Positions 883 through 40,404 of a stretch of DNA of 40,404 bases are shown here, piece after piece. Position 1 is the first letter of the stretch, and the number at the start of each line of letters is the position of its first letter. This stretch comes from Planctomycetota bacterium (GTDB lineage Bacteria; Planctomycetota; UBA11346): positions 1-40,404 of the forward strand of contig JAQIBG010000208.1 in NCBI GenBank assembly GCA_027859175.1. Reading direction: 5' to 3'. The notes below the pieces were generated by a model. It saw only the letters and a list, made by a program, of their open reading frames with translations, was not told the DNA's origin and made no database searches. The position numbers and the translations under genes were made by a program.

Positions 883-1575
883 ATGTTCTACAAACCTGTT
901 GCACTCCTTGCGTTGGCCGTGGCCCTCGATGCGGCCTCGGGCGCCGGGCCTGCAGCGGTTTCGACAACAGGCTTCCGGGACCGGGAACGTATTGTGGCCA
1001 ATTGGGGACATGTCGGTCCTACGTTGCGGCGGCAGCCGGAAGAAGTCAGTGGACAGTTTGAACGGCTGAAGGCCTATCTGCATTCACCCGAAGTGGTGGC
1101 CATGCTGGAGGCCGAACAAAAGCGCATGGTGGCGATTGAGGAACAGTTGGGCAAGCAGCAGGGCGATGCTCGTATGGCGCGGTACCGCACCGAGGATCAG
1201 GATCCTGGGGTGCCACGGGTAGCCTCTCGCACCAGAAGCATTCAAACGCCTGAGTGGATCTTTGGGATACCCTGGGATGTTCGGAAGCAGCTGGTGGTCG
1301 CAGCATTTGATGCGCGCGACGGCGTCCAAGTGGCCTGGGCACGCCGGGTCCGCGCGCTCCATCCGACCGCCGCGATCAATGTGGTGGGCTGGCACAGCCA
1401 GGCTGCACTAGATGCGGTACAAGAAGAGACCCCGGATCTGCGACCAATGTCCGTGGTTAGCGTGCCAGGGGGTGCATCAGCGGCCGACTGGTTGGGTGAT
1501 TGGGGAATTGAGGGATTACCGGCCCTCGTGCGGTGGACCAGCCCCGAGGAACAAGTCATGGAGGAAGGATTGTGA
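883..1575 (+). CDS. Exported TraW/TrbC-like conjugal transfer protein
   Basis: N-terminal hydrophobic segment; C-terminal TrbC/thioredoxin-like pattern (IFGIPWDVRKQLVVAAFD...GIEGLPALVRW); first gene of the transfer cluster. Confidence 0.5.
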   Translation: MFYKPVALLALAVALDAASGAGPAAVSTTGFRDRERIVANWGHVGPTLRRQPEEVSGQFERLKAYLHSPEVVAMLEAEQKRMVAIEEQLGKQQGDARMARYRTEDQDPGVPRVASRTRSIQTPEWIFGIPWDVRKQLVVAAFDARDGVQVAWARRVRALHPTAAINVVGWHSQAALDAVQEETPDLRPMSVVSVPGGASAADWLGDWGIEGLPALVRWTSPEEQVMEEGL

Positions 1576-6419: not shown

Positions 6420-7612
6420 CGATCCTGGTTCTGATAATTGGGTTCCTCTTGGCTCCAGGCCGCGCAAGTGCCCTGGACATGGCAACAGGCAAAGGTGCGT
6501 CGGGGTTCACGATGGCAGCAGGCGGGCTCGAAGAACTCGGGATCCTGACGGCTCTTGGCAGCGGCGCGCTTGGTAATTGTTTTGTTGGCAGCATTCGCTG
6601 GGGAGGCATGGAAACATGCACCAGCAGCGGGTGGCCACGCGTCTGCGTCCGCTTTCGCAACAATTACCTCCAGAATTTATTGGAGGCCTCCGGTAAGCGG
6701 CATCACTTTGCTTTGCAAACGGTGATGTCGGCTGCATTTTTGGAGGCGATTGCCGACAGTCAGTCTGCCGCCCCGTCCGCGAAAAAGCTCGGGGTGGACA
6801 TGGGTATGTTTACGTCTGGCAGCGGTCGCGTTCAGGGGCGCACCTTAGCGCCGCCGCTTCTTTATGAGGCTCTTGGGACGCTCGTGCAGGGGGCCTCACT
6901 GAACTCGCTGTGTCGTCCGACTGATCTGCGGTTTGGGTATATCTATTTTGCTGAGGGCGATGAGACCGGCGCAGGCCAGACCCTGTGGCGCTCGATCATC
7001 AGTCCCTATTACCTCAACCGCATGACCAGCGGCATTAGTCTTTTCGCCAAGGCGGTGGAGACCGTCGGCATGTGCGGTCTAGACGTCAACTTTATGCTGT
7101 GTATCGGAGGGTACGGAACGAAGTATCCGACCTCTGGCGATATTGCTGCCTCGTCGCCAGCATTACGACTGATCACGGGCGCCTGGCGCGCACAGGAGAT
7201 CCATGCGGCGCCGGCTGGCACGTACGGTCCCTATGACACCAGCTTGGGACCGGTCATCCACAGTCAGATGCACCTTCCGTTATCGATGGCCGGTGGGGTT
7301 ACGGCGGTCCTGCCACCCTATAGCCCTGGGAGCTATACGCAGTGGCTGTACCCGGGGATGGGCAGCTTGCCGGTTGGGAACCCCGATACCTTCTGCCAGG
7401 TGCTGGGTGTCGGAGCCGGCACGTCGCCACAGGCAATGAATCAAATGCTGAGCGAAGCGATCAATAAAACATGGATTGAAGAGGACACGTTAGCATTTGC
7501 GTATTGGACGCGCTGGACCTGTTGCAACTGGTGCCAGGGCGCGGACGACGCTGCCGTCAAACACATGATCCCCGAGCAGGGCTATAGTCCCGTCTTGACG
7601 CGCAAACCATGA
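6407..7612 (+). CDS. traU: TraU-like conjugal transfer protein
   Basis: Signal peptide from ATG 6407; GNCFVGSIRWGGMETC and Cys-rich C-terminus (WTCCNWCQ); position between TraW- and TrbC/TraF-like genes. Confidence 0.55.
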   Translation: MRTVTILVLIIGFLLAPGRASALDMATGKGASGFTMAAGGLEELGILTALGSGALGNCFVGSIRWGGMETCTSSGWPRVCVRFRNNYLQNLLEASGKRHHFALQTVMSAAFLEAIADSQSAAPSAKKLGVDMGMFTSGSGRVQGRTLAPPLLYEALGTLVQGASLNSLCRPTDLRFGYIYFAEGDETGAGQTLWRSIISPYYLNRMTSGISLFAKAVETVGMCGLDVNFMLCIGGYGTKYPTSGDIAASSPALRLITGAWRAQEIHAAPAGTYGPYDTSLGPVIHSQMHLPLSMAGGVTAVLPPYSPGSYTQWLYPGMGSLPVGNPDTFCQVLGVGAGTSPQAMNQMLSEAINKTWIEEDTLAFAYWTRWTCCNWCQGADDAAVKHMIPEQGYSPVLTRKP

Positions 7613-8514
7613 GGGACGTCGTGGCGTTTGTGGCTCTTATGGGGATTATCTGCCTCAGCGTTACATCGGCCCATGCGGCCGATGCAACGACGTTGTCACC
7701 CGATGAACAGGCGGCATTGCGGGCGATTGTTGACCGTGTTAATGCTGCGGCCAAAGCGCATACCGGTGACGGCATGCCGACTTTGAGTGCGGTCATGCGC
7801 GAGGGTGACACGAGTGGGGCTGGAATGCCGAGCGGTCCCGAAGCAGACGCGATTCGCGAGCAGCTCGCCGCGCTCACGGCGCTTATGGGCGTTGAAGGCG
7901 ACCCCGTTCAGGGGGCGGTGAACGCGGTTGGCGGTGTCGAGATGCCGCGCGATCCCAGTAGCGCAGACAGTTTTGAGATTGGCAACGAGGGTTTGCTGTG
8001 GGTTTTCTGGGCAGCTGATGGTCCCGATATGGTTCTGCTGCCGGCTCAACTGGCGACAGTTGCGCATTCGTTCCCGGAATTGCCGATCCGCGATAATCAC
8101 GTCATGCGGCTGAGCGATTGGCAGGACATGTTGCGGACCCTGTCGCAGATCAAGGACCTCCTTGAAATGCGCGATGACGCGATCCCCGACGCAGCGGAGA
8201 TCGCTCAGAAGCGCGAGTTGCGGGATAGTTTAATGAAGCCGTACCTAGCCGCCACAACGATGGCAGAGGCGCGCCAGACGGGTGGCATTCTCATTTTAGA
8301 GAATGCGGGACCTGCTGTCGATTGGCAGATCACCGAGTTGCCATCATTCGTATTTGTCAGTCCGCGCGGTGTTGTTCATCGCCGTGCCGGTCTCCATAGA
8401 GACCGCACCTTGGCATCCTGGATTGCAGGGTGTCTTGAGTGGGAAGTGGCAAATGACGCTGCGTTGCGCGAACGCCAACGCTTACTGGACCGAGCGTCCA
8501 CGGAGGACCAGTGA
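7609..8514 (+). CDS. TrbC-like exported protein (conjugal pilus assembly, thioredoxin-like)
   Basis: Signal peptide; C-terminal ITELPSFVFVSPRGVVHRRAG resembles TrbC/TraW-type folds; ATGA overlap with the upstream gene. Confidence 0.5.
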   Translation: MRDVVAFVALMGIICLSVTSAHAADATTLSPDEQAALRAIVDRVNAAAKAHTGDGMPTLSAVMREGDTSGAGMPSGPEADAIREQLAALTALMGVEGDPVQGAVNAVGGVEMPRDPSSADSFEIGNEGLLWVFWAADGPDMVLLPAQLATVAHSFPELPIRDNHVMRLSDWQDMLRTLSQIKDLLEMRDDAIPDAAEIAQKRELRDSLMKPYLAATTMAEARQTGGILILENAGPAVDWQITELPSFVFVSPRGVVHRRAGLHRDRTLASWIAGCLEWEVANDAALRERQRLLDRASTEDQ

Positions 8515-10022: not shown

Positions 10023-10036
10023 CAACAAAAGTGTTG
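10023..10036. promoter_or_regulatory. Inverted repeat CAACA-AAAG-TGTTG overlapping the start of the TraH-like gene
   Basis: Exact 5-bp arms, 4-bp spacer; same CAACA/TGTTG half-site as 9973-9988. Confidence 0.4.
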
Positions 10037-12046
10037 AACATGCGAACTCTCCCGGCGTTGTGCGTAGCACTCCTTTTTGGCCTTTCTGCCTCGCTCTTTG
10101 GGGCAACGGTGGAAGACCAAACAAGTGGTGAGGCGGTCACGCCATTAGCAGACGCATCGCGGATTGGCATCCCCGAGCCTGAAGTCTTTCAGAGCGCTGA
10201 TCCAGATGAGATGGCGGACCTACTTAACCAAGTTCAAGCAGCCATGGAGCTCAAGTTTACGCCCGCGCAAATGGAGCAGATCCACGCCAAGGTTCAGACA
10301 GCGAACATGGCGGAGTTCCTGGAATACGCACGCGGTCAAGAGGCATTCGGTGGGACCAACGAGAGCGACGCTGCCTCACAGGTTTGGAGCGGTGGCGGAT
10401 GGGGCCTGCATGCCAGCGTGCGGCGCAATGCGAATTTCTCTCCCATGCGGCATTTCCCTTCTCAGCAAAGCTTGGCGATCATTGAGGCAACTGGGAATCA
10501 ACTCTCCGGGTATAATGAGAAGCTGCAAAAGGTCAGTGATCGGCTGGAACGCTCAAAGTTCGCATGTGGTAACTTTGATTGGGTCGCCCAGCTCGGCGCT
10601 AAATTTAACAAGGAGGCGCTGGAGAAATATGTAGACTCACTGAGTGAGTCGGCGCTCGCTGCGGCGCCTATGGCCTTTTTAGCTAATTGGAGTCCAACGC
10701 TGTACGAGATTGTGAAATGGCTGCGTGCCTTTGCTGGGGCTGACCTCAATGCTGAAAAGGTAACCTGCGAAAACATGGAGCAGGCCCTCACGAACGTGGG
10801 GCAACGCATGATCCGTGGACCAGGGTTTCCAAAGTGCATTGAGGCAAACAAGCACCTGTCGCCGCATGAGGCCTACCGCATTTGTGGTGGCGGTCGGGCC
10901 GGCATTTTTGACGGCGTCGAAAATTCGCTGGGTAAAATCATGAGTCTCCAAGGAGGCGTTGAGAAGATTAACGTCACCAGTGTCCTCGGCGACATGATGC
11001 GGACGCCCCGCGACACGACGGTCGACTTGAGTTCCGAGACCAACGCCGTGGCGAAAGCCGAGGACGATCTGATTGAAAAACAGGCAGATCTAGATGCTGC
11101 TCCCAATCCAGGGCCTGCCCCAAACGTTGCGGAGGATAGCGACGTAGCCAAGAATTACAGGCTTGCGCTCATGGCCCATGAGGAGGCCAAGAAAGCCTTA
11201 GCAAAGGCCAACGACACCCTCGGGGAAAAACGGCACGACCTCAATGTTGCGAGCAGAACAGATGTTGGCTTCTGGAATCAACTGGGGAATGCCGTTGCTG
11301 ACAATCTGCCAAACATTATTGGCAATATCGATATATCCGCCAAGGCCGGCGTCCACATTGGTCGACAAAACATCTTAGACATGATGTTGCGATATCGCCG
11401 TTTTGGCTACGCGCACGCGCGCGAGTTTTGGGCAGCGCTTGTTGCGCATGGTGGCGAGATCACCGCTACGAACCCTGATCCGACACGCATTTCCGAAGGC
11501 TATACAGCGATCGGCGGTTTTTGTTGGGAGACCATGCAAACGCCGTGGAACACGGCTGGAGCGAGGGGTGGATCTAGGGTGTGGACGCCGAAGGCGACGC
11601 TCGACTACAGTTTCTCGTATGAAACGCTTGATAAGATGGCGTTTCTTGCATTCGCCGAAGAAAACTTGGGAACGGATGATGCACAACGTATTCAGTTTTA
11701 TGAGCGCTATCGCGTTGTCGAGTTGACGAACTGGATAGCGCAACTGGAGGTGTTCTGGTTCCTCGTGGAGCGAACGGAAGAAGTCAAACACGAAGTGCTG
11801 ACGGCGATCCTGAACAACGGGAGCCTCAATCAAGATGGTGTGAACGGGGTGTTTTACACCACGGCCAATAATGCATTTGATGACGTCATCTACGCCTGCG
11901 AGATCAAGCGCGAAGAGGCAGTGATCGAAACGGCGATACGCGTTGCGATTGTTAATAAGTTTGTGTTAACGGTGATGCCGCCAAACCAAGCAGACCAACG
12001 GCCAGCAGACACGGTCATGCCGGCCTTTTCAGACTTTGGACGATAA
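10031..12046 (+). CDS. traH: TraH-like conjugal transfer protein
   Basis: Signal peptide (MRTLPALCVALLFGLSASLFG); 671 aa; lies between TraF-like and TraG_N-like genes; partial resemblance to TraH/PFL_4711-type proteins (YARGQEAFGG, WSGGGWGLHASVRRNANFSP). Confidence 0.5.
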   Translation: MLNMRTLPALCVALLFGLSASLFGATVEDQTSGEAVTPLADASRIGIPEPEVFQSADPDEMADLLNQVQAAMELKFTPAQMEQIHAKVQTANMAEFLEYARGQEAFGGTNESDAASQVWSGGGWGLHASVRRNANFSPMRHFPSQQSLAIIEATGNQLSGYNEKLQKVSDRLERSKFACGNFDWVAQLGAKFNKEALEKYVDSLSESALAAAPMAFLANWSPTLYEIVKWLRAFAGADLNAEKVTCENMEQALTNVGQRMIRGPGFPKCIEANKHLSPHEAYRICGGGRAGIFDGVENSLGKIMSLQGGVEKINVTSVLGDMMRTPRDTTVDLSSETNAVAKAEDDLIEKQADLDAAPNPGPAPNVAEDSDVAKNYRLALMAHEEAKKALAKANDTLGEKRHDLNVASRTDVGFWNQLGNAVADNLPNIIGNIDISAKAGVHIGRQNILDMMLRYRRFGYAHAREFWAALVAHGGEITATNPDPTRISEGYTAIGGFCWETMQTPWNTAGARGGSRVWTPKATLDYSFSYETLDKMAFLAFAEENLGTDDAQRIQFYERYRVVELTNWIAQLEVFWFLVERTEEVKHEVLTAILNNGSLNQDGVNGVFYTTANNAFDDVIYACEIKREEAVIETAIRVAIVNKFVLTVMPPNQADQRPADTVMPAFSDFGR

Positions 12047-12055
12047 GGAGAGAGC

Positions 12056-13225
12056 ATGCGAACAACATCGTTTGTCGTAGTCGGTGTACTGTCAGCGATA
12101 GCATTTTTAGCCGGATGTGGACCTCGCACCCATTCTGTGCCCGCGTATGACTGGCAGAAAATCGCTAAAGGCTACGCCTGGCTAGAGGCAGCGCCAGCCT
12201 ATGACGATGCTGACGACGTCTGGGTGTCGCGATACAATGGAAACGTAGAGGGCTCAAAGGGACCCAAAACGTATACGGACGGCCCGCAGAGACCGTCCGA
12301 TCGCATCCAATGGGTGCGAATTTGGGTGGCGACGGAATTTCCCGGTTTGCATTCAATGGATGAGATTGCGAAGCGGGCACAGGAGCCAAAGGACACCTAT
12401 CCCTGGTACTTTGATCTCACAGGCCAAGCGTTAACTCGAGATAATGCGATTCGCCCGGATATGATACGTGAATACGTTTTGAACAATGAGATGCCGCCAG
12501 CCTCTGTTCGGCGGACGTTTAAGTTCCTCAAATTTGAGGAAGTCGACACCTTTGACGAGGCCGTCGTAGAAAAGGCTAGTCAGAAGTATGTGAAGGACGG
12601 GTTGGCCTATCAAGAGGATGAGGCTGTCGCGCTGCTCGAGAGGGACGCGGATGTGCGGGCCAACGGTGGGTATATCCCGGTCATCCGTCTGTGCATTGGA
12701 CTAGATCGAGAAAATCCCATGACCGCCACGATCCTGGCCGATCAGGCCAAGGTGGACCGCCTTGCTGAGCTTGTGTTTGATTTTTATCAGCGGTACCCAC
12801 TGGACCTCCCGGGCGGCTTTAACGACCAGGATCCACCTTTTGGGCATAGGCATATGGCTATGCTTGAACCGGGCCGCACGGCACAGCGGTTTTTCCCAAG
12901 CAATGAGTATCGTGAGTCAGCGCCGCGATTCATGTCGCCGGTTGTCTTAAACACGAGCGTGAACCTTTTTGCCTATGTCCTCCCGCGATTGAACACCTGG
13001 GCCGAAGAGATGGGTGCGGGTAAGCAAATCTTCACGACTTGGGAACGGAACACATACGGCACGCCCCGCGACTTCCAGCCGCTCATTGGGGACCTGGCCT
13101 TTGGCATTTATGCGGTGCCACGCCGCGATCTCGCGAGTTTTGGCAAGACGATGGCTGCTAAGGGTCCTCGGGATCCCTATCGCTACTTTGGCCCCGACGA
13201 TGTTGCGGATGGCGTGAAGCGCTAA
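12056..13225 (+). CDS. Lipoprotein of unknown function in the transfer cluster
   Basis: Lipobox LAGC near the N-terminus; AAGGAG Shine-Dalgarno. Confidence 0.7.
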   Translation: MRTTSFVVVGVLSAIAFLAGCGPRTHSVPAYDWQKIAKGYAWLEAAPAYDDADDVWVSRYNGNVEGSKGPKTYTDGPQRPSDRIQWVRIWVATEFPGLHSMDEIAKRAQEPKDTYPWYFDLTGQALTRDNAIRPDMIREYVLNNEMPPASVRRTFKFLKFEEVDTFDEAVVEKASQKYVKDGLAYQEDEAVALLERDADVRANGGYIPVIRLCIGLDRENPMTATILADQAKVDRLAELVFDFYQRYPLDLPGGFNDQDPPFGHRHMAMLEPGRTAQRFFPSNEYRESAPRFMSPVVLNTSVNLFAYVLPRLNTWAEEMGAGKQIFTTWERNTYGTPRDFQPLIGDLAFGIYAVPRRDLASFGKTMAAKGPRDPYRYFGPDDVADGVKR

Positions 13226-13227
13226 CT

Positions 13228-16200
13228 ATGGTCCGGTCGCCAGCCTTCTTACGCGTTTTGACCCTCGCACTGCTTGGCATGCCAAGTTTGTGCGCGGCGG
13301 CGAAGACGTTTGATTTAGGGGCTGAGGCCACCGTCGGGTTGACGTGGCTCGCGGGTTGGATCATCGGCTTTGGCGTCTTAATCGTCTTTGGACTAATGAT
13401 CCTGTGGGCCGTCCGCGCGGCAATGCGCGAGGATTACACGCCGAGCTACATTCTTTTTGGGGCCATCTTGTTGGTTTTCATGGCGTGGTCGATAGCCAGC
13501 GGCGCGGGCAGCGGCATCACACTTGGCAAAGATGGAGCCAACCAGGGACAGTTAGTTACCGATTACCCGTGGCAAGTGTTCGGTGGGGACCCAGCGAGCC
13601 CATCCTATAAACCCAGCGCCGCGCCGGCCCATATGGTGCAAGTCGGTTGGGCGATCATGGGGGCCACGTTCAGTTACAACATTCTGAACTACGGCTTCGT
13701 GTCAGGGATTATCCCAATCGTGGTCTTTATCGGGGCGCTGATGGCTGTGCGCGCCGCGCAGCGGTCCCATTCAGTCGCGCCGATCATCATGCATCTCATC
13801 GTCATGTTTGTGGGCGGGTATTTCCTGCTCTGGCCATCGGTCTCGATCGTGCCGCCTATTAATCAGAATGCGGTGCTACAAGAGATTCGAGAAAGCCCAG
13901 GAGATGACCCAATCGCAGTCGTGACACCCATGCAGGTTATGGCACTGCAGGGCGGGATCGGAATTGGTGAGGGCGTGACGCGAGCGTTCACGATGCAAAA
14001 TAACGATGTGGACAGCGTGCTCCTGGCGGCAGCGCTATCGGCGAAACTGGACGATGACGTGTACAACACGTACATGACCTACGCCTCAACGTGCATGACG
14101 GCGATGTTGTCAGTGAATAAGAATCGCAAAGTGACGACTGCCGCGACAAGTGGCTTCGGGCGTTTCAATGACGAGAAATTTGGGGCCTCCAACCTACCCG
14201 TTGCGGAAGGAACGCTCGGGAAGTACCTCTCGGCGCCGAATTATGCGCAGCACGCGCTGAGCCCATATGCAGATAGCATGTTTAGGGACATCTATGTACC
14301 CTATTGGGTTGTAACCAAAAACTATGACCAGGTCTTTAAACACCCAGCAGACATCGACAGGGCGATCCAATTAAATGGCCTAATTAAGCAGGCCTCATGG
14401 CATCCCAACCCACTCATTGGATCGGGGGATGTTGGCACTGTTCCAGCGGCAGGAGAGCGGCGCTACAATGTGGAGTGGCCTGCCTACTACTCTGGTATGT
14501 CGAATGAGGGCTGGGCGCTCTGGGACTATTACGGGAGCGCGAACATCGGCTCTCCACGGTGGCTGCCCTTCTGTGCGGTTGACGGTATCGGGGTTGCCGC
14601 GTCCATGCGCGACAGTCTTTTTGATTCTACGCAGGCGAGCGAAATGATGACTGACGTCTATTTTGGCGCCAGCGGGATGGACCGCGTGAACCCATTTAGT
14701 TGGGACGATATCGTACGGATGCGCATCGCCGACCGTTATGTGAACGGCGACAGTGTCGAATGGTGCACGTCGAGCGTGTCCCCGGATAAGAACGAATCGC
14801 ACCTATGGGGCTGTCTCCTTGCAGGCCATTATACGGTTGGGGGCACGCCCCAGGCCGACGCGATGGTGGAGGCGCAAGAACGCTTTGACGCAATGTGGCG
14901 CCCCGTGCTTGAGGACTCCGCAACGCAGGTGAACGATGACGCGGCCGACGGTGGGCTGTATTCTCCGCAGACACGGTGGCGAACGAGCTTTCCGGCAGGT
15001 ATTCCCGTTAACGGCTTCAACCCACCGACTTGGCGCTGGTATGTAGATCAGTTTATGATCGCACCCGGCGTACAGGAACAAATTGGCCTCGCCAAGCTGA
15101 CCACGAATAAGGGCGAGGAGATTGAAGAGAGCGTCGTTATTAAACTTATGAGAAGCATTGCCCCGATAACGGGGGGCGTTCTTGGTATCTTTGGATGGGT
15201 GGCCACCTTATTCGCGCGCATAGCCGAGATGATTTATCCGCATGCACTTGGGATTATGACGCTGTGGCTCTTGGTGACATATGTGCCGTGTGCCGTATTG
15301 AGTATGCTACCAGGGCGATATGGATTTTTCATCGAATGGGTTAAAGCGGCTGCCGTCCTTGCGATTATGCCGATATTTATCGAGGTAGGCCTTAACTTCC
15401 TGTCGATGGCGGGAAACTCTGGTTTAACGACCATTTTCATACGCCAAGCAGCGGGCCAGACGATGACCGAGGCGGTCCTCAAGATAATGGGTGCCATGTT
15501 TGTCATTTCGAGCTTCACGCTTGCGACGTCGATGGTCGGACTTGGGTTCTCGTCGATCATGAGCGGGCTCGGTGCTATCAACAGCACGGCATTCAAGGTT
15601 GCTGCGGCGACTGGTGTGGTCGCGATGGGCGTTGCCTCGCTTGCGGCCGGTGCAGGCGCGGCTCTGGTTGCGAAGGGGTTGCTGGCGGCAGGCGCAGCCA
15701 AGACCACCGGTGGGCTCGCCAAAACCGCGCTCACGTCGTCAAAGACGGCGAAGGACACCGGGAAAAAAGTCAAAGACGGCACCGAGAAACTGACCAAGTC
15801 AGTGACGCAAGGTGCCAATCAGCGTGCGCCCGTGGATGGTGGGCAACCACGTGGTGGTGGGGATCCGCGCATCGTTAGCGCCACGCAGCAGTTTAATGCT
15901 GAAGAGCAAAGGCTACGGAGTGAGCGCGGTGAGACGTGGAGGAATGCTGGGCGTCAGGTCAGCTCAACCGCTGGCTCGGCGGTTTCCACAGTCGGTTCGA
16001 CCCTCACGTTGGGTGGTGGTGACGCAGATTTGGTCAGCGGAGCCCAGCAAGGCCTAGGGATAGCCGGTGGGCTTGCGCGTGGCACGGGCGACGCACGGCG
16101 TGCGATGCGAACAGGCGGCGCGCTGCGCCGCGCGCGCAAGCTCGGCATGGGTGAACGCGAGGCTTACAATGCCTCCCCCGATGATGCGCTGGCAGCCGAT

Positions 16201-16995
16201 TACGCGAACGTCGCGACAACGTTTGATCGCCAGCGCGAGAATGCGCTGGCTAACGGCGAGGACGCGACTGAGTACGGGCAGCAGGCCGGCGAAAATTACT
16301 GGAATGCGAGCCGCACCGCGAGTGATGATCTGACACGAGCAAACTATGCGATCGCGTCGTCGCGGGCGTATCAGAGCGTCGGAATGACCCGAGAAGCGTC
16401 AAACGGCAGGCGCGCAGCGGCGCGGGATCTTGAGGGCGCGCGCGTCCAGGCGCGCGATTCCTCCTCGCTCGGTCAACTCGGCTTGGGCGAGATGAATCTG
16501 GCCAGCCTCGATGTCGAGATGGGGATCAGCAAAGGCAACGCGTCGGCGGTCCAGCAGGGCATGTCAAATATTGAACGGTTTGGTGACAAGGCCGATTGGC
16601 ACTTCAGCCGTGCCGCAACAGAGGCTGGTGGCGACGGCAGCCTGGACGGTTGGATTCAGAGTAGCAGTGCAACGATGGGCCAACTGGAAGTTGCGCGTGG
16701 CATCGATAGTGCAGCGAACATGAGTGCGCCGATGATTGGCGGTGGTGAACCGCAAGCCGTTGAGGGGTTCTTTGAGAAGAAGGCCGCCAACCTGCGGAAC
16801 CAGGCGGATAGCGGAAGCGAGCAAGCCTCTATTGTTCTGGGAGCACTACTGGCGCGAGCAGGACGGGTTGAAGAAGCGCGCTCGCAGTTGGCAGGGACGT
16901 CGCTCAATTTGGAAGATGTCGAACTCGATCGCAGTATTCAACAGCTGCGCGACGGTCGTTTCTCAACGGTCGAATCATTGTTGAGGAGACTCTGA
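13228..16995 (+). CDS. traG: TraG_N-domain conjugal transfer protein with long C-terminal helical tail
   Basis: Several N-terminal and central TM segments, TraG-like layout (MVQVGWAIMGATFSYNILNYGFVSGIIPIVVFIGALMAVRAA); 1255 aa; position after TraH-like gene. Confidence 0.7.
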   Translation: MVRSPAFLRVLTLALLGMPSLCAAAKTFDLGAEATVGLTWLAGWIIGFGVLIVFGLMILWAVRAAMREDYTPSYILFGAILLVFMAWSIASGAGSGITLGKDGANQGQLVTDYPWQVFGGDPASPSYKPSAAPAHMVQVGWAIMGATFSYNILNYGFVSGIIPIVVFIGALMAVRAAQRSHSVAPIIMHLIVMFVGGYFLLWPSVSIVPPINQNAVLQEIRESPGDDPIAVVTPMQVMALQGGIGIGEGVTRAFTMQNNDVDSVLLAAALSAKLDDDVYNTYMTYASTCMTAMLSVNKNRKVTTAATSGFGRFNDEKFGASNLPVAEGTLGKYLSAPNYAQHALSPYADSMFRDIYVPYWVVTKNYDQVFKHPADIDRAIQLNGLIKQASWHPNPLIGSGDVGTVPAAGERRYNVEWPAYYSGMSNEGWALWDYYGSANIGSPRWLPFCAVDGIGVAASMRDSLFDSTQASEMMTDVYFGASGMDRVNPFSWDDIVRMRIADRYVNGDSVEWCTSSVSPDKNESHLWGCLLAGHYTVGGTPQADAMVEAQERFDAMWRPVLEDSATQVNDDAADGGLYSPQTRWRTSFPAGIPVNGFNPPTWRWYVDQFMIAPGVQEQIGLAKLTTNKGEEIEESVVIKLMRSIAPITGGVLGIFGWVATLFARIAEMIYPHALGIMTLWLLVTYVPCAVLSMLPGRYGFFIEWVKAAAVLAIMPIFIEVGLNFLSMAGNSGLTTIFIRQAAGQTMTEAVLKIMGAMFVISSFTLATSMVGLGFSSIMSGLGAINSTAFKVAAATGVVAMGVASLAAGAGAALVAKGLLAAGAAKTTGGLAKTALTSSKTAKDTGKKVKDGTEKLTKSVTQGANQRAPVDGGQPRGGGDPRIVSATQQFNAEEQRLRSERGETWRNAGRQVSSTAGSAVSTVGSTLTLGGGDADLVSGAQQGLGIAGGLARGTGDARRAMRTGGALRRARKLGMGEREAYNASPDDALAADYANVATTFDRQRENALANGEDATEYGQQAGENYWNASRTASDDLTRANYAIASSRAYQSVGMTREASNGRRAAARDLEGARVQARDSSSLGQLGLGEMNLASLDVEMGISKGNASAVQQGMSNIERFGDKADWHFSRAATEAGGDGSLDGWIQSSSATMGQLEVARGIDSAANMSAPMIGGGEPQAVEGFFEKKAANLRNQADSGSEQASIVLGALLARAGRVEEARSQLAGTSLNLEDVELDRSIQQLRDGRFSTVESLLRRL

Positions 16996-18011
16996 TGCGG
17001 GCTGCGTTTGTTGCCGTACTTTTGTGTGCCGTGGCCTGGTTGCCAGCTGTTCAGGTCCTGTCGTGGGACGATGGGATCGCGTCGATGCGAGCCCAGGAAC
17101 ACCCGGGCTATGCTATCTTTATTGGGCGTCGCCATGCGCGCCTGATTGAGTTGCTTAAATCAAGCGAGATTCAAACGGGCAATGTGCCGATCGTTCATCT
17201 GAGCGCGGCCTCGGAGGTGCTCAATCCATACACGGAACGGCGCGTCCCAGGCACGACGATGATCAGCTTGCTGACCGGCCCGGTTGGTGACCTGACCGGT
17301 GGCTCGTTAATCTTTTTCGATGCGGAAGGTGCTCTGGTACCAAGCCTAACCCTTATCCAAAACTTTCATCGGAATCGCCCTGCGGTCATCGAGCTCTACT
17401 GCCGCATGCTGGTGTCGCCTTTGCGTGATAAGCTCAGCTTAGCCGAGTTCGCTCGCTTCGAGGGGTTACCCATTGGTCTTGAACTGGTGGCAGAGGTCCA
17501 GGCGGGTGCGCATCGAGACTTCAGTCACATTTTCCGGGAGGTGGATGCGGCCGATGTACTCCCACGCGCCGTACTTGGCGACGGCGGTGTGCATGACCTA
17601 CGTGGGGACCTGGCACTCACCGTGGTGACCCGCGATCCCAATGGCGAGGTCTTCATCGCGCTGATGCGCGAGATTCACGTCAAGCTTGCCGTAAACTCGG
17701 GTGCAACGGTACAGCGTCCGCCGCTTATCGTTGCTGGTCCTGCGCAAGCGACCTACCCGGCACTGGATGCCCTAGGCATCACGTACGAGGCCGCAACGCT
17801 GACCAAAGAACAACTGAGAGCCTTTCCGTCACCGGCAATCGTGATTCCCCAAGCGGGCGAACGGCCGGTGACCTTGGTGAGCGGGTTCGTTCCAGGGCAG
17901 GTTCTTGCAGAATATCTGCTACCCAAGGAAGTGCGCGCACTGTTAAACGATTATCGTGTATTAGCGCCGGATATCCCCGTTGGGGATACCGACATTGAGG
18001 CGGGTCAATGA
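16995..18011 (+). CDS. Exported protein of unknown function
   Basis: N-terminal signal peptide; TGATG overlap with the upstream gene. Confidence 0.6.
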   Translation: MRAAFVAVLLCAVAWLPAVQVLSWDDGIASMRAQEHPGYAIFIGRRHARLIELLKSSEIQTGNVPIVHLSAASEVLNPYTERRVPGTTMISLLTGPVGDLTGGSLIFFDAEGALVPSLTLIQNFHRNRPAVIELYCRMLVSPLRDKLSLAEFARFEGLPIGLELVAEVQAGAHRDFSHIFREVDAADVLPRAVLGDGGVHDLRGDLALTVVTRDPNGEVFIALMREIHVKLAVNSGATVQRPPLIVAGPAQATYPALDALGITYEAATLTKEQLRAFPSPAIVIPQAGERPVTLVSGFVPGQVLAEYLLPKEVRALLNDYRVLAPDIPVGDTDIEAGQ

Positions 18012-19567
18012 GCGACGACGCGGAAGCGACGAACCCAGGGAGCGGGACGGTACGCATCAACCCTGCGGTGTTCCTGCCTGGAGCAGCGCTGGCGTTGGGC
18101 TACGCGATTCTGTGTGTGCTGGTTCTTGGTGACTGGGGCCTGACAGCTGGGCTCATAACGCTGGCGCTTGGCGCGGCGTTCCTCATCGGCAGCAGTTGCA
18201 CGATACCTGCGACCCCAGCCTTGCTGGTGGTCGCCAATGGCTTGGTGGCACTGATCCTGCTGCTGCAGGGGCTGGGTGTGTGCACGGCTGGCTGTGGCGG
18301 ATTCATTGACTATCAAAGCCTCGCAGGGATGCCCACCGCGCTAGTCGGCTGTGGCTTGCATGTGGTTCTTATCGCCATGGGCGTGTTGCTGGCCAAGGGG
18401 CGGTGGGTAACCGGGCAAGTATACCGTGTGGCCCTGGCCCTTGGCCAAGGGGCGAGCGCCTTCTTTGCCGCTATCATGATCAGTCATGGACACTGGTGTC
18501 CGTCCTGTGCGGCATCGCATGTGATTATGGCGGGGCAGGTGCTGCTGTTGTGGCGCCTGACGCCCAACGGGCGCCTACGCCTGGTTCACGCCGGTCTGAT
18601 TGCGTTGATCGCTCTGGCGGTGAACGCGAGCTTCCACCACCGATTTGAGCGTGCTGAGCAGGCACCTGGGGATGCCTTGCTGGGCTATTTAGCGACCGTC
18701 GACCAAGCAGGCATTCTCGTGCCAGCAGGTGAGGACGGGCCTGTCGTTCGGCGTGTGGTCGCCCCGCCAGCAGTTGCGCCACGCGCGGCAAAGGGTGAAC
18801 GCCCAGCAATCGTCGTGGACCTGTCGGATGTCAATACGATACCGGAACGCGCGCTCCCACGTTTGGGCCCACCAGTCCAAGACAGCGCTCCGGCTGAGGA
18901 ACCGGCGACCGCAACCCCGGTTGCGGCGACGCTGCGTGAAAGCGGATTCTACCGCTGGGGGTCGGCATCCGCGCCGATTATCATGCGGACGCACATGTCC
19001 TTGGCGTGCGGCGCCTGCCAGGCGCATTGGCCGCACTTACGGAATCTGGCGCCGCTGGTGCGCAACGGGCAGGTCTCGGTGGAGTTCCTGTTTTCATGGC
19101 CGTTATCGCCGCGCGTTCATTGCGGAGCCCGTCTGGCGACGTATGTGATTTATACCGCAGGTCTCCAAGGTGAGCCAGAGTTGCTGGCGGTTGCTGATTG
19201 GCTGTTTAGCGCCGACGGCGTGCGCTTGATTAGTAAAATCGACAGTGTTCTTGGCGCCGAAAACGGCGGTGCCGAACCAACAACCGAATCCCAGCGCGAG
19301 GCGCTGACAACGCTCTTTGTACGCGCCAATAACATCATCGATGCGAAAACGGCTGTTACGACGTATGCCAATGAGCGCACACGTATTGATCAATACCTAG
19401 CGAAGAGCGTGCGCTGGGTCATTGAAAAAGGCCAAAGCCGAGACACACCACGCACGTTTTACCTGAGGAACGGCGAGGAAACGCCGTACCTCGACTCCAC
19501 AAGCTTCGACCGCGATGTGGTCGAAGCCTACATCCACCGCGGTTCAGAGCCGCACACTAACCCCTAA
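18008..19567 (+). CDS. VKOR-like membrane domain fused to DsbA/thioredoxin-like domain
   Basis: Several TM helices; CTAGCGGFIDYQSLAGMPTALVGCGLHVV and HGHWCPSCAASHV (CPSC at 18497-18508), then TM, then MSLACGACQAHWP (CGAC at 19007-19018) in a DsbA-like context. Confidence 0.65.
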   Translation: MSDDAEATNPGSGTVRINPAVFLPGAALALGYAILCVLVLGDWGLTAGLITLALGAAFLIGSSCTIPATPALLVVANGLVALILLLQGLGVCTAGCGGFIDYQSLAGMPTALVGCGLHVVLIAMGVLLAKGRWVTGQVYRVALALGQGASAFFAAIMISHGHWCPSCAASHVIMAGQVLLLWRLTPNGRLRLVHAGLIALIALAVNASFHHRFERAEQAPGDALLGYLATVDQAGILVPAGEDGPVVRRVVAPPAVAPRAAKGERPAIVVDLSDVNTIPERALPRLGPPVQDSAPAEEPATATPVAATLRESGFYRWGSASAPIIMRTHMSLACGACQAHWPHLRNLAPLVRNGQVSVEFLFSWPLSPRVHCGARLATYVIYTAGLQGEPELLAVADWLFSADGVRLISKIDSVLGAENGGAEPTTESQREALTTLFVRANNIIDAKTAVTTYANERTRIDQYLAKSVRWVIEKGQSRDTPRTFYLRNGEETPYLDSTSFDRDVVEAYIHRGSEPHTNP

Positions 19568-19581
19568 CCGGGAGGTTTATT

Positions 19582-19962
19582 ATGGGTATCCGCCTTTCCA
19601 TTCCTGCATGGCTGCGCGCCATCTTTTGCGTTGTCGCACTCCTTGGAGGCGCAGCGACGATGGCCCCCAACCTGAATGCGGCCGTGCAAGACGACGTCAC
19701 GACGGCCGTTGACGATGCCGTCGCTGCTGCTGACACCAGCGGCTCAGCCATGGCCCCTATTCTTGACGAAGGTAACGCCATTGGTCGTTGGGTCGTCATG
19801 ATCCTCTGGCTCTTGGTGCCACTGATCCTCTTCGGCAGCCTCATCGCCTGGGGTGTGATTCAGGCCCGTGGCAATGAAGCTGCTGCAGCACGGAAGACCT
19901 TCATCGCCGTTGGCATTGGTGTGATCTTCTACTTCGGCGTGCTGACGATTTTTTTCAACTAA
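19582..19962 (+). CDS. Candidate conjugative pilin (TraA/VirB2-like small two-TM protein)
   Basis: Signal peptide ending near NLNA, two hydrophobic helices, GGGAGG Shine-Dalgarno, TAA stop, position at the start of the TraL-E-K-B-V-C-like block. Confidence 0.6.
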   Translation: MGIRLSIPAWLRAIFCVVALLGGAATMAPNLNAAVQDDVTTAVDDAVAAADTSGSAMAPILDEGNAIGRWVVMILWLLVPLILFGSLIAWGVIQARGNEAAAARKTFIAVGIGVIFYFGVLTIFFN

Positions 19963-19974
19963 GCAGAAGGCGTG

Positions 19975-20002
19975 GTGGACCAACCCACGGGGGTTGGTCC
20001 AC
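19975..20002 (+). other. Perfect 12-bp stem hairpin downstream of the candidate pilin gene
   Basis: GTGGACCAACCC-ACGG-GGGTTGGTCCAC; no T-tract. Confidence 0.75.
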
Positions 20003-20022
20003 GTTCGCCACGAGAGTAAGCA

Positions 20023-20658
20023 ATGCCCGCACAGCGGACCTTTGAGACATTTTCATCGCATTCGAGCCTGGATTTCCCACTCGAATCTAAGGCGGGATTT
20101 TCCGCTAACGAAAGTACGATTAACCTCGTTGCGCCGCTGTTTGTCGGCATTGTCTGCGCAATGGCTATCCATGGGCTGGCGATCCTCGTGATGGTGCCCG
20201 CCTACTTCATAACACCGCGCATCATGTTGCGGATGAAGAAGAACAAACCGCGTAGCTGGATGCGAGATGGCATCCACCGCATGGGGCTGACTTTCAATAC
20301 GGCGAACGGGTTTCGTCGTGCTTTGGGGACCAAGCGATTTATCGGCCGGCGGATGCTCTCGGGCAGCGCATGGTCGAATGCAGGTAAGGCCAGCCTTTAT
20401 CCCAACAAACCGAGCCACCTGACCTTGGGACTGCCGGCAATCCGGGCCTTTGATCCCAAGTCCAAAACCTTTGGCGAATCAATTACGCCCTTTGACCGCT
20501 GCGCGAAGGTGGCGATCTACGAGCGGTGTTATCGCGGCAAGGCAGCGAAGCTGTCGGCCCATATGGCAGATGCGTTAGCGCCGACGGAAGACGGGGTGCG
20601 AACCTATCAGATGTTCGAAGCGGCCCTCCGGCCAGTGAGCGTGGTGCCACGTGGCTGA
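20023..20658 (+). CDS. TraL/VirB3-like membrane protein (tentative)
   Basis: One or two N-terminal TM segments (INLVAPLFVGIVCAMAIHGLAILVMVPAYFI) followed by a basic region; lies between candidate pilin and TraE-like genes. Confidence 0.35.
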   Translation: MPAQRTFETFSSHSSLDFPLESKAGFSANESTINLVAPLFVGIVCAMAIHGLAILVMVPAYFITPRIMLRMKKNKPRSWMRDGIHRMGLTFNTANGFRRALGTKRFIGRRMLSGSAWSNAGKASLYPNKPSHLTLGLPAIRAFDPKSKTFGESITPFDRCAKVAIYERCYRGKAAKLSAHMADALAPTEDGVRTYQMFEAALRPVSVVPRG

Positions 20659-20905
20659 GGTCCTCCATCTCCCGATCGTGCTGCGGCGCAGCGTATCGCG
20701 TCATGAGCGTGGCACGCTCCTGGTGCTGATCGCACTTATGATCATTCCCAACATCCTTATCGCGGGGGCGTTATTCTACGTGGTCAACAGCGGGCGTGAG
20801 CTCGCGACACCAGACATCGTGCGGGCGGTACCTGCAGACGTCCGCTGGGGTCCGCACATTGACCGAACAGATCGCGAAACGCCCGAGAAGAGGGCTGCTC
20901 GATGA
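20651..20905 (+). CDS. Small single-TM protein
   Basis: 84 aa; TM LLVLIALMIIPNILIAGALFYVV; overlaps the upstream gene and abuts the downstream one. Confidence 0.55.
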   Translation: MAEVLHLPIVLRRSVSRHERGTLLVLIALMIIPNILIAGALFYVVNSGRELATPDIVRAVPADVRWGPHIDRTDRETPEKRAAR

Positions 20906-21816
20906 ATCCTGATAAGGACGATGTGGTGGTCATCGCCGAAGGCGATGATTACCAGCCGACAGAATCAGAGTCCGATGATGGCGCGATGCGCCCAAGCCCA
21001 GGACCCGAGGTGGTCTTGAGTGATGTGACGCCTGAGGAACTCGACCGACACAACCCCTGGAAGAAGGGGGAGGCAGCAGCATTCCTGCGACGCGGTATGC
21101 GACCAGCCGACTCCATTCAGGAGAGTGGCGACGTCCTCATATTAAGCCGGCGCAACGGTGTCCTGTTGTGGGTGTTGCTACTTGAGTGTCTTGTCTTCGT
21201 AGCGCTGTGCTTTGGGCTCGTGTATGCGATTATGAATCAGCGCGTGACGGCGATTCCAGCGGTCGGAGCCATTGCGGGCTACCGCAAGGCGGAGAGCGAC
21301 AAGCAGGCCGTGATTGCGTTTGCCGATATGGTCAGCAACGAAATGGAAACCTGGAGTTGGTGGAACGCGATGGACAACGTGGATCGGGTAAAACCATTTC
21401 TCGATCCAGAGATTCGCGGCCCTTATGAAAGCGCATTCTCGGTTAACCTACGTGATTCAAAACGGTACGCACAGCGTTCTGTTTATGAGCGCGTGAAGGT
21501 GGAATATAAGGGCGTCGTCCGCGAGTCGGTGCACAAGATTATTGTGTTCTACCAAGTATGGGTCGGGCGCGGAAAGACGGACCGCGACTTTACCATCGAT
21601 CGCATTAGTCGGCGTGCCAAAATCCTAGAGATTGCTGAAGGGGAACCGACGACGGAGAACCCCTTTGGGCTCTTTGTGATCCGGCACATTAACCTAACGG
21701 ATAATGACTGGATGGGCGCGCTGCTGAAGCGGGCGGAAGTCGGCGACGAGGTGATTAACCCCTGGGATGAGGCCACGGGCCTGCGTAGCCCGAAGGTCCG
21801 CAAGGAAGCTCCGTGA
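20902..21816 (+). CDS. VirB8/TraE-like inner membrane protein (copy 1)
   Basis: Cytoplasmic N-terminus, one TM, periplasmic domain with W-rich helix then RVKVEYKG.../IIVFYQVWVGRGK strands. Confidence 0.5.
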   Translation: MNPDKDDVVVIAEGDDYQPTESESDDGAMRPSPGPEVVLSDVTPEELDRHNPWKKGEAAAFLRRGMRPADSIQESGDVLILSRRNGVLLWVLLLECLVFVALCFGLVYAIMNQRVTAIPAVGAIAGYRKAESDKQAVIAFADMVSNEMETWSWWNAMDNVDRVKPFLDPEIRGPYESAFSVNLRDSKRYAQRSVYERVKVEYKGVVRESVHKIIVFYQVWVGRGKTDRDFTIDRISRRAKILEIAEGEPTTENPFGLFVIRHINLTDNDWMGALLKRAEVGDEVINPWDEATGLRSPKVRKEAP

Positions 21817-37200: not shown

Positions 37201-38030
37201 CTCCCGTGCCTGCCGCTGCCAGCCTGCCGCAAACGATCCTCCAGGAGATCAGTCTAGCGACGGGTGATGACGGCCCCATCAGTGATGAGGAAGCGGCGAA
37301 GCTCGCGGCCGAGCAGGCGCAGGCAGATGCCTTCCAGGCGGCACTCAGTGCCGAAGGCATGGGCGACGACGAAGACGACGACGAACAAGCCTTTGTGGCC
37401 GAGATGGAGCGGCGCGCACAAGCACAGGAAGCCGCAGATGCGATCGATGAACCCGAGGTTATCGATGACGAAGACGGGGACGACCTGCCGCCGGGTGACG
37501 ATGACGACCCGAGTGATGACGATGATGACCCCTGGGCTGCGGTTGAATCGGGGGCTGAAGAGGCGCCCGAGGATGACTGGTGGGACCAGGACGGGCCGCT
37601 TCCCGTGGATCAGGAGCCGACCGAACCGGTCGCCGTTGAACTGACCGATGACCGGGGGGGCTATCAGAAGGGCCATCGTGACCGCAAGGGGCGTAAAACG
37701 GGCTCATGGACCGTACATGAACCCAACGGGGACGCGGTCGCCGAGGTGCTCTATCGAGAGGATGCGCCAGTTGCAGAGCGGCCAGCAGGACCGAGTGTCA
37801 GCGAGCAGGAAAAATGCCGCGAAGCCTACCCGGAACACGACGGGTGGGTGTACTGCGGGCTGCGCATGGCGGGCAAGCGGATCTTCAGTTGGCTGGTGCT
37901 TGATGAAGAGGATCGCACGCGAGAGCGCCATCGCTACGGGATGGACGGACGGCCAAAGGGCGTCTGGGAGGTGCTCGATGAAACGGGTGCAACTATTGAA
38001 ACGAAGCCAGCCCCGCTAGAGGGACCGTGA
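34200..38030 (+). CDS. traD: TraD/VirD4-type coupling protein (T4CP) with acidic and MORN/YwqK-like C-terminal tail
   Basis: Two N-terminal TMs, Walker A MGASGYGKT (35256-35279), DLDLLYVGDEMF Walker B-like; ATG at 34200 in TGATG overlap. Confidence 0.85.
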   Translation: MAVEVPVNTQAAFENMLPNPIRSARLLRIWGTIAVAMVAALTPFLLDYWVVAALLMLSGTTAVVWSMVLIQRARRDEIELYKSRLYSIKALPAHPDEAQQEKKDIKLPLAEREGQWWRQRGPSFTHEQIEETIYQANGDERTQCYWRRVLVPETATQHRAFAVYVREKCPELYRIIAEWWKEFHADEVASQLWAGQTFEGLDFDGQALVRTRTEVEFLTGCHIALEPDTWLVREDKRPSHRTYSLLRQRLAAVLPGGAPATAIIDAAPWVWRPIRKKLYVGKGYQWGNDHCLAMHYSRYFAKGQVRKGRHKKAAKEGEDLRADPRFLGLDWRKIAPVWTDYEKDLKQHTLFMGASGYGKTRGVEPLLIQSIYNGSAVVWKDPKVDNEAVALIAHHAKLAGREQQIVFLSVSRPELPYNCSFNPISGFHDPSQIGNILAGMMPADAGQNQFFLEEAKNTGRIVGTQVDWVNKWMSLLSDGDDLAWHPPRLVLWLEWARVNKLHVASDSEKGSERKTRIDASWAEFLESEKRLRAEDRDYRPRSPGEECLFTLWNQPQYCARWWKLHFGHLNDFALNNRQRLFSWTMRLVFPYLCIEEDRFRDPLFPVSDNLEVVTGYTPPMQPANKEKATPLVEVYERASTHILEPNGMLRADTKRNSWAYLYEVALDATQLPQVHHILERMQRSIGELLGSIKRPPEEYGQAVANLRAPINEIVAGEKFELLCSADPDITWKRIHEEKLIVILALGSMTDQKASDAVSKAFVQSLLGYGGHIQDRGGADLDLLYVGDEMFSWITADWASIVDKLRGTGVRTVGLCQSEAGMRYATKNPDLFTHIVTNVTNRYTCASPNRADQEAFTNGLGTVIGFVPVRTVTETPALGSAGNQQVSQFSGSESWNWTSEKLPKLEPEYIGKMPIGMFFRRVQDLLHVYQAPLVERAPVSYLAQVGMDAKNNRCLLEGIDYGVAGGDHLRRLQGWGSAERLFTSADANNTSHLDVVAPVSATPVPAAASLPQTILQEISLATGDDGPISDEEAAKLAAEQAQADAFQAALSAEGMGDDEDDDEQAFVAEMERRAQAQEAADAIDEPEVIDDEDGDDLPPGDDDDPSDDDDDPWAAVESGAEEAPEDDWWDQDGPLPVDQEPTEPVAVELTDDRGGYQKGHRDRKGRKTGSWTVHEPNGDAVAEVLYREDAPVAERPAGPSVSEQEKCREAYPEHDGWVYCGLRMAGKRIFSWLVLDEEDRTRERHRYGMDGRPKGVWEVLDETGATIETKPAPLEGP

Positions 38031-38048
38031 TGCAACTCTTTTGTTGCA
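38031..38048. promoter_or_regulatory. Inverted repeat TGCAAC-TCTTTT-GTTGCA, candidate operator
   Basis: Exact 6-bp arms immediately after the traD stop; not followed by a T-tract; half-site resembles 10023-10036. Confidence 0.4.
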
Positions 38049-38076
38049 GAAACGGTGAAGCTATTATCATACTCAT

Positions 38077-38242
38077 GGTTCGCAAGCATGTGCTTGTGAA
38101 CCTCGTTCCTGGGCGCTGTGCTCCCAGGAATAATCTGATCCATAACGGATCATAACCGTCCAACTGCCATTTCGTGGTTGGACTTCCGGCACATTGGATG
38201 CCGTTAATCGCGCTTAAGCGCATGCGCGGGGATAGAACCCGC
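38077..38242 (+). other. Cluster of six inverted repeats/hairpins (candidate structured RNA leader or oriT-like region)
   Basis: 38077-38102 GGTTCGCAAGC/GCTTGTGAACC; 38106-38130 TTCCTGGG/CCCAGGAA; 38136-38152 TGATCC/GGATCA; 38158-38183 GTCCAAC/GTTGGAC; 38210-38221 GCGCTTAAGCGC; 38226-38242 GCGGG/CCCGC. Confidence 0.65.
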
Positions 38243-38256
38243 AGAAGGAGGCCACC

Positions 38257-39000
38257 ATGGCCCGTATGACCGAGAATGCCCTCGAAGGCAACGGCAAGCC
38301 CATCGATAAGATCACCTCGCGTTATTTCGAGCTTTCTGCCGATCAACACGAGGCGATGACGTCGGATGCATTGGACAAAAAGGCGCGCGATCTCGCCACC
38401 GCTGCAAGCGATGGCAAGCGCGACTACCGCAAGTTTCCCCGTTGGGCGATGGCTGAAGAAAAGGCGATCGCTGGGGTTGCACCCGACATGACGAAGGAAG
38501 CGCAGGTTTCGCCCTACGCCCGACTCATGTCGCAGTCTCGTGGCTACGAGCAGGCGGCACGTTCGAAGGAAGCGATCTCGAAAGGGCTCCTCCAAGAATT
38601 TGCCAACGAAGATGGCACCGTTGAGCGCGGCATTGTCTCGCTCGATGGTTCCAAAAAGCCGGCTCGCGAAGGTCAATGGGTGAAGCTCAACAGTGAGGGC
38701 CAACGGCTCGAACTGTCGACCTTCAAGGACGGGAAGGCAAACGGTGAATCCCTCACCTACGATCCGGCCAACGGCCGCGTCGCAGAAAAGGGTTTCTACC
38801 GTGAGGGTGAAAAAGCGGGGACCTTTTACTCGAACTTCAACGAGAAGGGCTTTGCCCAACACGTTGAAAAGTTCAAGGGTGGTGCGCTGGAGAAAGCCTA
38901 CGACCGTACTCCTGAGTCCGTAGAAATGCGGAAAGAGGAACGGGCGCAGACCCAGCGCGCTCAAGAGGCCGTCCACGCTATTCGACCGTCGATGGGATAA
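38257..39000 (+). CDS. MORN/YwqK-repeat-like protein of unknown function
   Basis: GAAGGAGG Shine-Dalgarno; repeats such as REGQWVKLNSEGQRLELSTFKDGKANGESLTYDPANGRVAEKGFYREGEKAGTFYSNFNEKG; TAA stop; own terminator. Confidence 0.75.
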   Translation: MARMTENALEGNGKPIDKITSRYFELSADQHEAMTSDALDKKARDLATAASDGKRDYRKFPRWAMAEEKAIAGVAPDMTKEAQVSPYARLMSQSRGYEQAARSKEAISKGLLQEFANEDGTVERGIVSLDGSKKPAREGQWVKLNSEGQRLELSTFKDGKANGESLTYDPANGRVAEKGFYREGEKAGTFYSNFNEKGFAQHVEKFKGGALEKAYDRTPESVEMRKEERAQTQRAQEAVHAIRPSMG

Positions 39001-39028: not shown

Positions 39029-39060
39029 GCGCCCTCACTCTATCGAGTGAGGGCGCTTTT
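39029..39060 (+). terminator. Rho-independent terminator
   Basis: GCGCCCTCACTC-TATC-GAGTGAGGGCGC-TTTT, perfect 12-bp stem. Confidence 0.9.
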
Positions 39061-39083: not shown

Positions 39084-40404
39084 GTTTCTATCCGCGCCCC
39101 CGTGAAGGGGCGACCCCTCAACAGCACCGTTTTCCCCGCCTGGGACTGGTTTCTATCCGCGCCCCCGTGAAGGGGCGACTGAACAGCAGGTCGGCGTGTA
39201 TCAGGACCAAATGTTTCTATCCGCGCCCCCGTGAGGGGCGACATGCCCAGCGGGGCCAGGTTGGCGGCGGGGATGGTGTTTCTATCCGCGCCCCCGTGAA
39301 GGGGCGACTTCGTGTGCGTCGATGGGGTCCATCTCCTAGTGGGTTTCTATCCGCGCCCCCGTGAAGGGGCGACGCGCCAAAATGACAAGCGCAACGATGG
39401 GATAAACGTTTCTATCCGCGCCCCCGTGAAGGGGCGACCTGGCGTCTACCCACCCCGGCCTGCGCGCCACGGTTTCTATCCGCGCCCCCGTGAAGGGGCG
39501 ACTGCCTCGCAGTGTCGAGCGGGCCCTGGACTCCCACCAGTTTCTATCCGCGCCCCCGTGAAGGGGCGACGCGCGAATCTGTACCGCGCTTCCATCGGCA
39601 TGATGTTTCTATCCGCGCCCCCGTGAAGGGGCGACAAGACGTCACGCGATGCGGCAATGACGCCCTTCTTGTTTCTATCCGCGCCCCCGTGAAGGGGCGA
39701 CATATGCCCGGCGCGTGTCGGGGTCAACGCTGGTGTTTCTATCCGCGCCCCCGTGAAGGGGCGACCCAATTCCTTGCGCGTAAGGGTGACCGGGCGGTGT
39801 TTCTATCCGCGCCCCCGTGAAGGGGCGACGTCCATGTGACTGCTGCCACCATGGAAGCCATCAAGTTTCTATCCGCGCCCCCGTGAAGGGGCGACCGGCC
39901 AGCCCAATCGTAGCAACCTCACGCGCACGTTTCTATCCGCGCCCCCGTGAAGGGGCGACACCTGCAACCCACGCGCATGAGGAGCAGAACATGTTTCTAT
40001 CCGCGCCCCCGTGAAGGGGCGACTTGCTGTGCTTGGTGGTCGCCAGCACCGAGGACGCGTTTCTATCCGCGCCCCCGTGAAGGGGCGACTGTGGGCGTAA
40101 ACGATCCAATCCTTATCGCTAAGGTTTCTATCCGCGCCCCCGTGAAGGGGCGACATCCACCACCGGCCCCGTAACCGATATTAACGACGTTTCTATCCGC
40201 GCCCCCGTGAAGGGGCGACGCGTTACGCCGGTGCGCTGGACCAAGCGCTGATGTTTCTATCCGCGCCCCCGTGAAGGGGCGACACACGTTTGAGGCCGGC
40301 GAGACCTACGATTTGACCGTTTCTATCCGCGCCCCCGTGAAGGGGCGACCGCGCCAATAATCCATGACCCCGCTCACGGAAACGTTTCTATCCGCGCCCC
40401 CGTG
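39084..40404 (-). CRISPR. Type I-C-like CRISPR array, 20 full repeats plus one truncated by the window end, 20 spacers
   Basis: 31-nt repeat GTTTCTATCCGCGCCCCCGTGAAGGGGCGAC (reverse complement GTCGCCCCTTCACGGGGGCGCGGATAGAAAC) at 39084, 39149, 39213 (30 nt, one A missing), 39278, 39343, 39408, 39472, 39540, 39605, 39671, 39735, 39799, 39865, 39929, 39993, 40059, 40124, 40189, 40253, 40319, 40384; spacers 33-37 nt. Minus orientation inferred from the ...GATAGAAAC repeat end. Confidence 0.98.

Follow-up and report, generated by a model that had tools for sequence, protein, structure and literature searches.

The window, a complete contig of 40,404 bases, belongs to an incomplete 5.6-Mb genome assembled into 495 contigs. 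It carries a gene cluster for an F-like T4SS, with TraU-like, TraF-like thioredoxin, VKOR-like, TraB/TrbI-like and TraC proteins and a long TraD-like coupling protein (T4CP). The family matches of this cluster range from TraC_F_IV (3.2e-9) and a TrbI-like match just under its cut-off (2.9e-8) to a TraU match under the cut-off (0.0018) and a weak TraF match of the thioredoxin-like protein. Judged by these similarities, the T4CP is encoded together with the VirB4/TraC, TraB, TraU and TraF components of a T4SS. Two other proteins of the cluster, encoded at 1533-6419 (1628 aa) and 13228-16995 (1255 aa), have no significant Pfam match, and a third (10031-12046, 671 aa) has no match beyond a weak one to TIGR03755 of NCBIfam. 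No relaxase was recognised among the window proteins, and a MOBH-type relaxase (PF07514) was not found in the genome as far as it is assembled.

The translated T4CP shows a Walker A motif (GASGYGKT) and, by eye, N-terminal membrane segments. Its ATPase core matches TIGR03743 (SXT_TraD, 4.3e-35) and TIGR03754 (4.9e-19), both below the curated cut-offs, and the protein is best classified as a divergent member of the VirD4/TraD type IV coupling proteins. A stretch of ~250 residues between two TraD-matching blocks (aa ~480-730) has no family assignment and is shared with the T4CP of contig SLQH01000553.1, which is described below. The core is followed by an acidic linker, presumably flexible, and a MORN-type tail, and the next gene downstream encodes a second protein with MORN-type repeats, here called P0002 (Table 1).

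Table 1. Features of the T4CP, the noncoding gap and the P0002 gene (window coordinates)
Feature	Position	Strand	Remarks
T4CP (VirD4/TraD-type), 1277 aa	34197..38030	+	GTG start at 34197 or ATG at 34200
Acidic T4CP linker (aa 1025-1152)	37269..37652	+	Net charge -47, pI 4.1; not alignable with the SLQH01000553.1 T4CP
MORN-type T4CP tail (aa 1153-1277)	37653..38027	+	Detected with two HMMs
T4CP repeat unit A GSWTVHEPNGDAVAEVLYRE, preceded by half unit GGYQKGHRDRKGRKT	37701..37760	+	HMM alignment; pairs with GEISIRHPGGAVFGVGRYR of the SLQH01000553.1 T4CP
T4CP repeat unit B RTRERHRYGMDGRPKGVWEVLDETGATIET	37914..38003	+	HMM alignment
Noncoding gap, 226 bp, eight consecutive distinct stem-loops	38031..38256	+	Ends at the P0002 ribosome-binding site AGAAGGAGG
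Stem-loops of the gap	38031-48, 38077-102, 38105-131, 38136-152, 38158-183, 38187-203, 38210-221, 38226-242
P0002, 247 aa	38257..39000	+	Orphan N-half, MORN-type C-half and terminal helix-like segment
Orphan P0002 N-half (aa 1-128)	38257..38640	+	Unmatched in 391 other Planctomycetota genomes (E <= 0.01)
Three P0002 MORN-type units GQWVKLNSEGQRLELSTFKDGKAN / GESLTYDPANGRVAEKGFYREGEKA / GTFYSNFNEKGFAQHVEKFKGGALE	38671..38892	+	Translation and two HMMs
Terminator-like hairpin after P0002, 12-bp stem, TTTT	39029..39060	+	Read from sequence; consensus scan silent, 4 T only

The repeats were detected with an HMM that combines 21 stretches of two MORN units each from other proteins of the Planctomycetota. 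The score of P0002 was 34.8 bits (E 1.7e-11), against 25.8 bits (1.2e-8) for the T4CP tail and 23.5 bits (6e-8) for the tail of the SLQH01000553.1 T4CP, while the remaining window proteins reached at most 1.1 bits; the 21 stretches had been collected from matches to P0002, which makes its own score, unlike that of the T4CP tail, somewhat circular. None of 2000 composition-preserving shuffles equalled any of the three sequences. A second, independent HMM, made from four plasmid proteins annotated as 'YwqK family' (Martelella, Cetobacterium, Ilyobacter and Bernardetia), recovered the same top three more weakly (P0002 1.3e-9, T4CP tail 0.0037, SLQH01000553.1 tail 0.0053), again with 0/2000 shuffles for each. 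P0002 also matches NCBIfam NF033566 at 1.8e-5. As far as profile scores can tell, both P0002 and the T4CP tail carry tandem 23-25 residue GxW...G...Y units of the MORN_2/YwqK class. Pfam MORN_2 matches neither of them even at E = 1, and the T4CP units must therefore be considered degenerate: only two are recognisable in the tail, ~50 residues apart and interrupted. The first-pass annotation had placed such repeats in the last ~125 residues of the T4CP and in the C-terminal half of its neighbour; both ORFs are found at the coordinates given there, and both HMMs and the shuffles bear out the repeats.

It had also called the repeats of the two proteins related, which holds for the repeat class, as recognised by the HMMs, but not for any special likeness. 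Compared directly, the T4CP tail and the P0002 repeats do not score significantly (p = 0.19), and each scores higher against ordinary exported MORN proteins than against the other. The two stretches thus share a common repeat class, and a recent duplication between them can be ruled out. The structure prediction suggested as a check of that claim yields mostly strands in both repeat regions, but at low confidence (pLDDT 46 and 40), and so neither supports nor refutes a shared fold.

Among the Planctomycetota genomes searched and in one genome-contig scan, only one other T4CP of such length was found, on contig SLQH01000553.1 of a planctomycete metagenome assembly. It is 31% identical to the window T4CP, its core also matches TIGR03743 and TIGR03754, and the T4SS genes around it correspond in kind and order to those of the window. 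This protein likewise ends in two MORN-type units (GEISIRHPGGAVFGVGRYRRGVPDGTWSFFDSHGSALGQHSY), which align with window unit A, although the linker before them cannot be aligned. In this sample of two T4CPs, the pattern points to the MORN tail as a selected domain, because it has been kept behind a freely diverging linker. The contig stops 238 bp past its T4CP gene, which puts a P0002-like neighbour beyond reach there. Six shorter, distant TraDs end without a MORN tail, and the tail therefore belongs to this T4CP subfamily; a general property of TraD proteins is ruled out. Within the sensitivity of the searches, none of the features annotated at MORN matches in 72,556 plasmids is a T4CP-MORN fusion, the tail matches no T4CP in that collection, and no report of such a fusion was found in the literature searched.

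P0002 has the marks of a real gene. Its coding score of 0.29 bits/codon is the highest of the six frames and comparable to the T4SS genes, and its start is preceded by a strong ribosome-binding site. The earlier suggestion that the gene is expressed separately from the T4CP agrees with these features, which mark it as apparently separately initiated. No signal peptide is apparent by eye, and the protein is apparently cytoplasmic. Homologues of P0002 were found in none of the plasmids, phages and viral contigs searched, and within the Planctomycetota it finds other proteins through its MORN half only. It has no Pfam or NCBIfam match to the TraM family.

The 226-bp gap between the two genes folds into a string of hairpins with an MFE of -98.2 kcal/mol (z -5.97, 0/200 shuffles); once GC content is corrected for, no other 200-nt stretch in the window is as strongly structured. 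Its sequence occurs once in the genome and has no match in Rfam, which rules out a dispersed repeat or an Rfam RNA. The 238 bp behind the SLQH01000553.1 T4CP show mild structure only (z -1.86), and where strong structure was inspected elsewhere in the contigs, it came from single long hairpins or coding sequence, with no hairpin strings. Candidate roles of the string before P0002 are those of an oriT, a single-strand promoter and a structured 5′ leader.

Behind P0002, the window ends in a CRISPR array (39084-40404) with 19 exact copies of a 31-bp repeat (GTCGCCCCTTCACGGGGGCGCGGATAGAAAC, minus strand). A second contig of the same genome, C74, ends in an array with the same repeat, behind a type I-C cas operon (cas3, cas5, csd1/cas8c, cas7, cas4 and cas1); operon and array lie within 12946-21269. 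Since the repeat is limited to these two contigs, the T4SS and the I-C CRISPR-Cas system probably lie together in one locus or on one element. Contig C74 also carries SNF2-like helicase, ParB-like and SSB genes (1701-4802, 6700-8256 and 11926-12510), fitting a plasmid or an integrative conjugative element.

MORN proteins elsewhere in the genome were located with a longer profile, because the 22-residue MORN_2 model gave no match in this genome or in control genomes. About six other contigs contain MORN matches. Leaving the T4SS aside, every complete MORN protein of this genome and of the SLQH01000553.1 genome starts with a lipoprotein or Sec signal as read by eye; one fragment of the latter genome is truncated by its contig. 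Two adjacent non-exported MORN proteins are thus unlikely by chance, on a post-hoc estimate of about 7 in 5000 genes. Contig C91, which holds the window genome's strongest exported MORN protein, also has a possible reverse-transcriptase-like CDS (PDHGIVCVADDHYL, one frame; 2301-2700), perhaps of a group II intron.

We propose, with a probability of about 40%, that the repeat module on the T4CP arm docks a cognate transfer factor, with P0002 as the first candidate, in an arrangement that would resemble TraD-TraM without being related to it. The TraD C-terminal domain is unstructured and binds substrates, with its last ~8 residues touching TraM, and TraD-TraM has been called the sole structurally defined contact between a T4CP and a relaxosome (PMC10939261). 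In the window, a highly acidic, presumably flexible arm of ~130 residues beyond the ATPase would carry a small MORN-type beta-repeat module, and this module would serve as a cytoplasmic docking head that recruits the transfer factor. The MORN half of P0002 would pair with it, as MORN repeats are known to do among themselves in tail-to-tail dimers (PMC7725318), and the N-half may bind a relaxosome protein or DNA, with the hairpin stretch just upstream of the P0002 gene as a possible site. Docking is favoured by the confinement of MORN repeats within the window to the T4CP and P0002, and by the occurrence of two adjacent MORN proteins lacking export signals in a genome with few MORN loci. The retention of the tail in the SLQH01000553.1 T4CP, its absence from six shorter TraDs, the gene-like features of P0002 and the structured gap before it speak for docking too. 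Against it, the two repeat stretches show no special likeness, MORN repeats are widespread and have diverse binding partners, the T4CP units are few and degenerate, no full-length homologue of P0002 was found in the collections searched, and no relaxase was recognised in the window. Docking is also not implied by the repeats themselves, because membership in the same class alone does not mean binding. A narrower form, in which MORN-to-MORN pairing itself is the basis of substrate or relaxosome recognition and P0002 is an adaptor behind a multi-hairpin oriT or a single-strand promoter, again unrelated in sequence to TraD-TraM, seems doubtful.

The other explanations differ mainly in the role given to P0002. 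It may be an ordinary accessory or cargo gene with MORN repeats, flanked by the T4SS operon and the CRISPR array, with the T4CP tail binding itself, the membrane or another part of the T4SS. The lack of special likeness between the two repeat stretches, the 226 bp that separate P0002 from the operon, its position next to the array and the commonness of MORN proteins all fit this explanation, which we nevertheless hold to be somewhat unlikely: chance adjacency is improbable because MORN loci are few in the 5.6-Mb genome, and P0002 differs from the exported MORN proteins of the same genome. Self-assembly or regulation by the T4CP tail, with P0002 as a competing soluble regulator of T4CP assembly or activity, would suit the tail-to-tail homotypic dimers formed by MORN repeats, for which lipid binding is unsupported (PMC7725318), and the apparently separate expression of P0002. 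With no more than two or three units in the T4CP tail, and these degenerate, a regulatory role is decidedly improbable.

A translocated P0002, docking on the T4CP tail as a protein substrate and aiding the establishment of incoming DNA in the recipient, is unlikely too, if a little less so than the regulator. Plasmid proteins, ParB and SSB among them, are translocated by F-like T4SSs (PMC8406263), and genes for both lie on the contig that is probably joined to the window through the same CRISPR array; the hairpin-rich DNA before P0002 could suit expression from incoming single-stranded DNA. On the other side, no known translocation signal was recognised by eye, the C-terminus is not strongly basic (net +1 over the last 20 residues), and no effector or establishment domain was recognised in the protein. 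Least probable is a YwqK-family antitoxin or immunity protein. The repeat class of P0002 does occur in proteins automatically annotated as 'toxin-antitoxin system YwqK family antitoxin', but no toxin gene was recognised alongside P0002, which has the T4CP upstream and the terminator-like hairpin and CRISPR array downstream. Its orphan N-half is moreover foreign to YwqK, and no PADLOC match was significant.

Several known systems share single elements with this locus. The MORN part of SET7/9 gives a weak alignment with P0002, without significance (E 0.16), but SET7/9 and MORN1 are eukaryotic and have other partner domains. YwqK/MORN_2 proteins, including the Leptospira LIC20035 family (NF033566), have the same GxW...G......Y..G repeat of 23-25 residues; those in the genomes studied here look exported, whereas at this locus a few degenerate units are attached to either a T4CP or an orphan domain. 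SXT/R391 and TOL-type TraD proteins (TIGR03743, TIGR03754) resemble the window and SLQH01000553.1 T4CPs in the ATPase core. Unlike them, the window T4CP scores well below the family cut-offs, is twice as long, and has the insert at aa ~480-730, the acidic linker and the MORN tail. The closest parallel to the proposed docking is TraD-TraM of F, R1 and pED208, where the transfer substrate is recruited by a C-terminal extension of an F-like T4CP past the ATPase; the window T4CP has an extension as well, and a small protein is encoded beside it. The TraD tail, however, is unstructured and binds TraM through its short tip (PMC10939261), whereas MORN-type repeats form the end of the window tail, and repeats of that class recur in P0002, the putative partner, which lacks a TraM match. 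If the docking proposal is correct, a T4CP bearing a repeat head, with a candidate partner of the same repeat class encoded next door, would represent a second, separate solution to relaxosome recognition and offer a first handle on conjugation in Planctomycetota.
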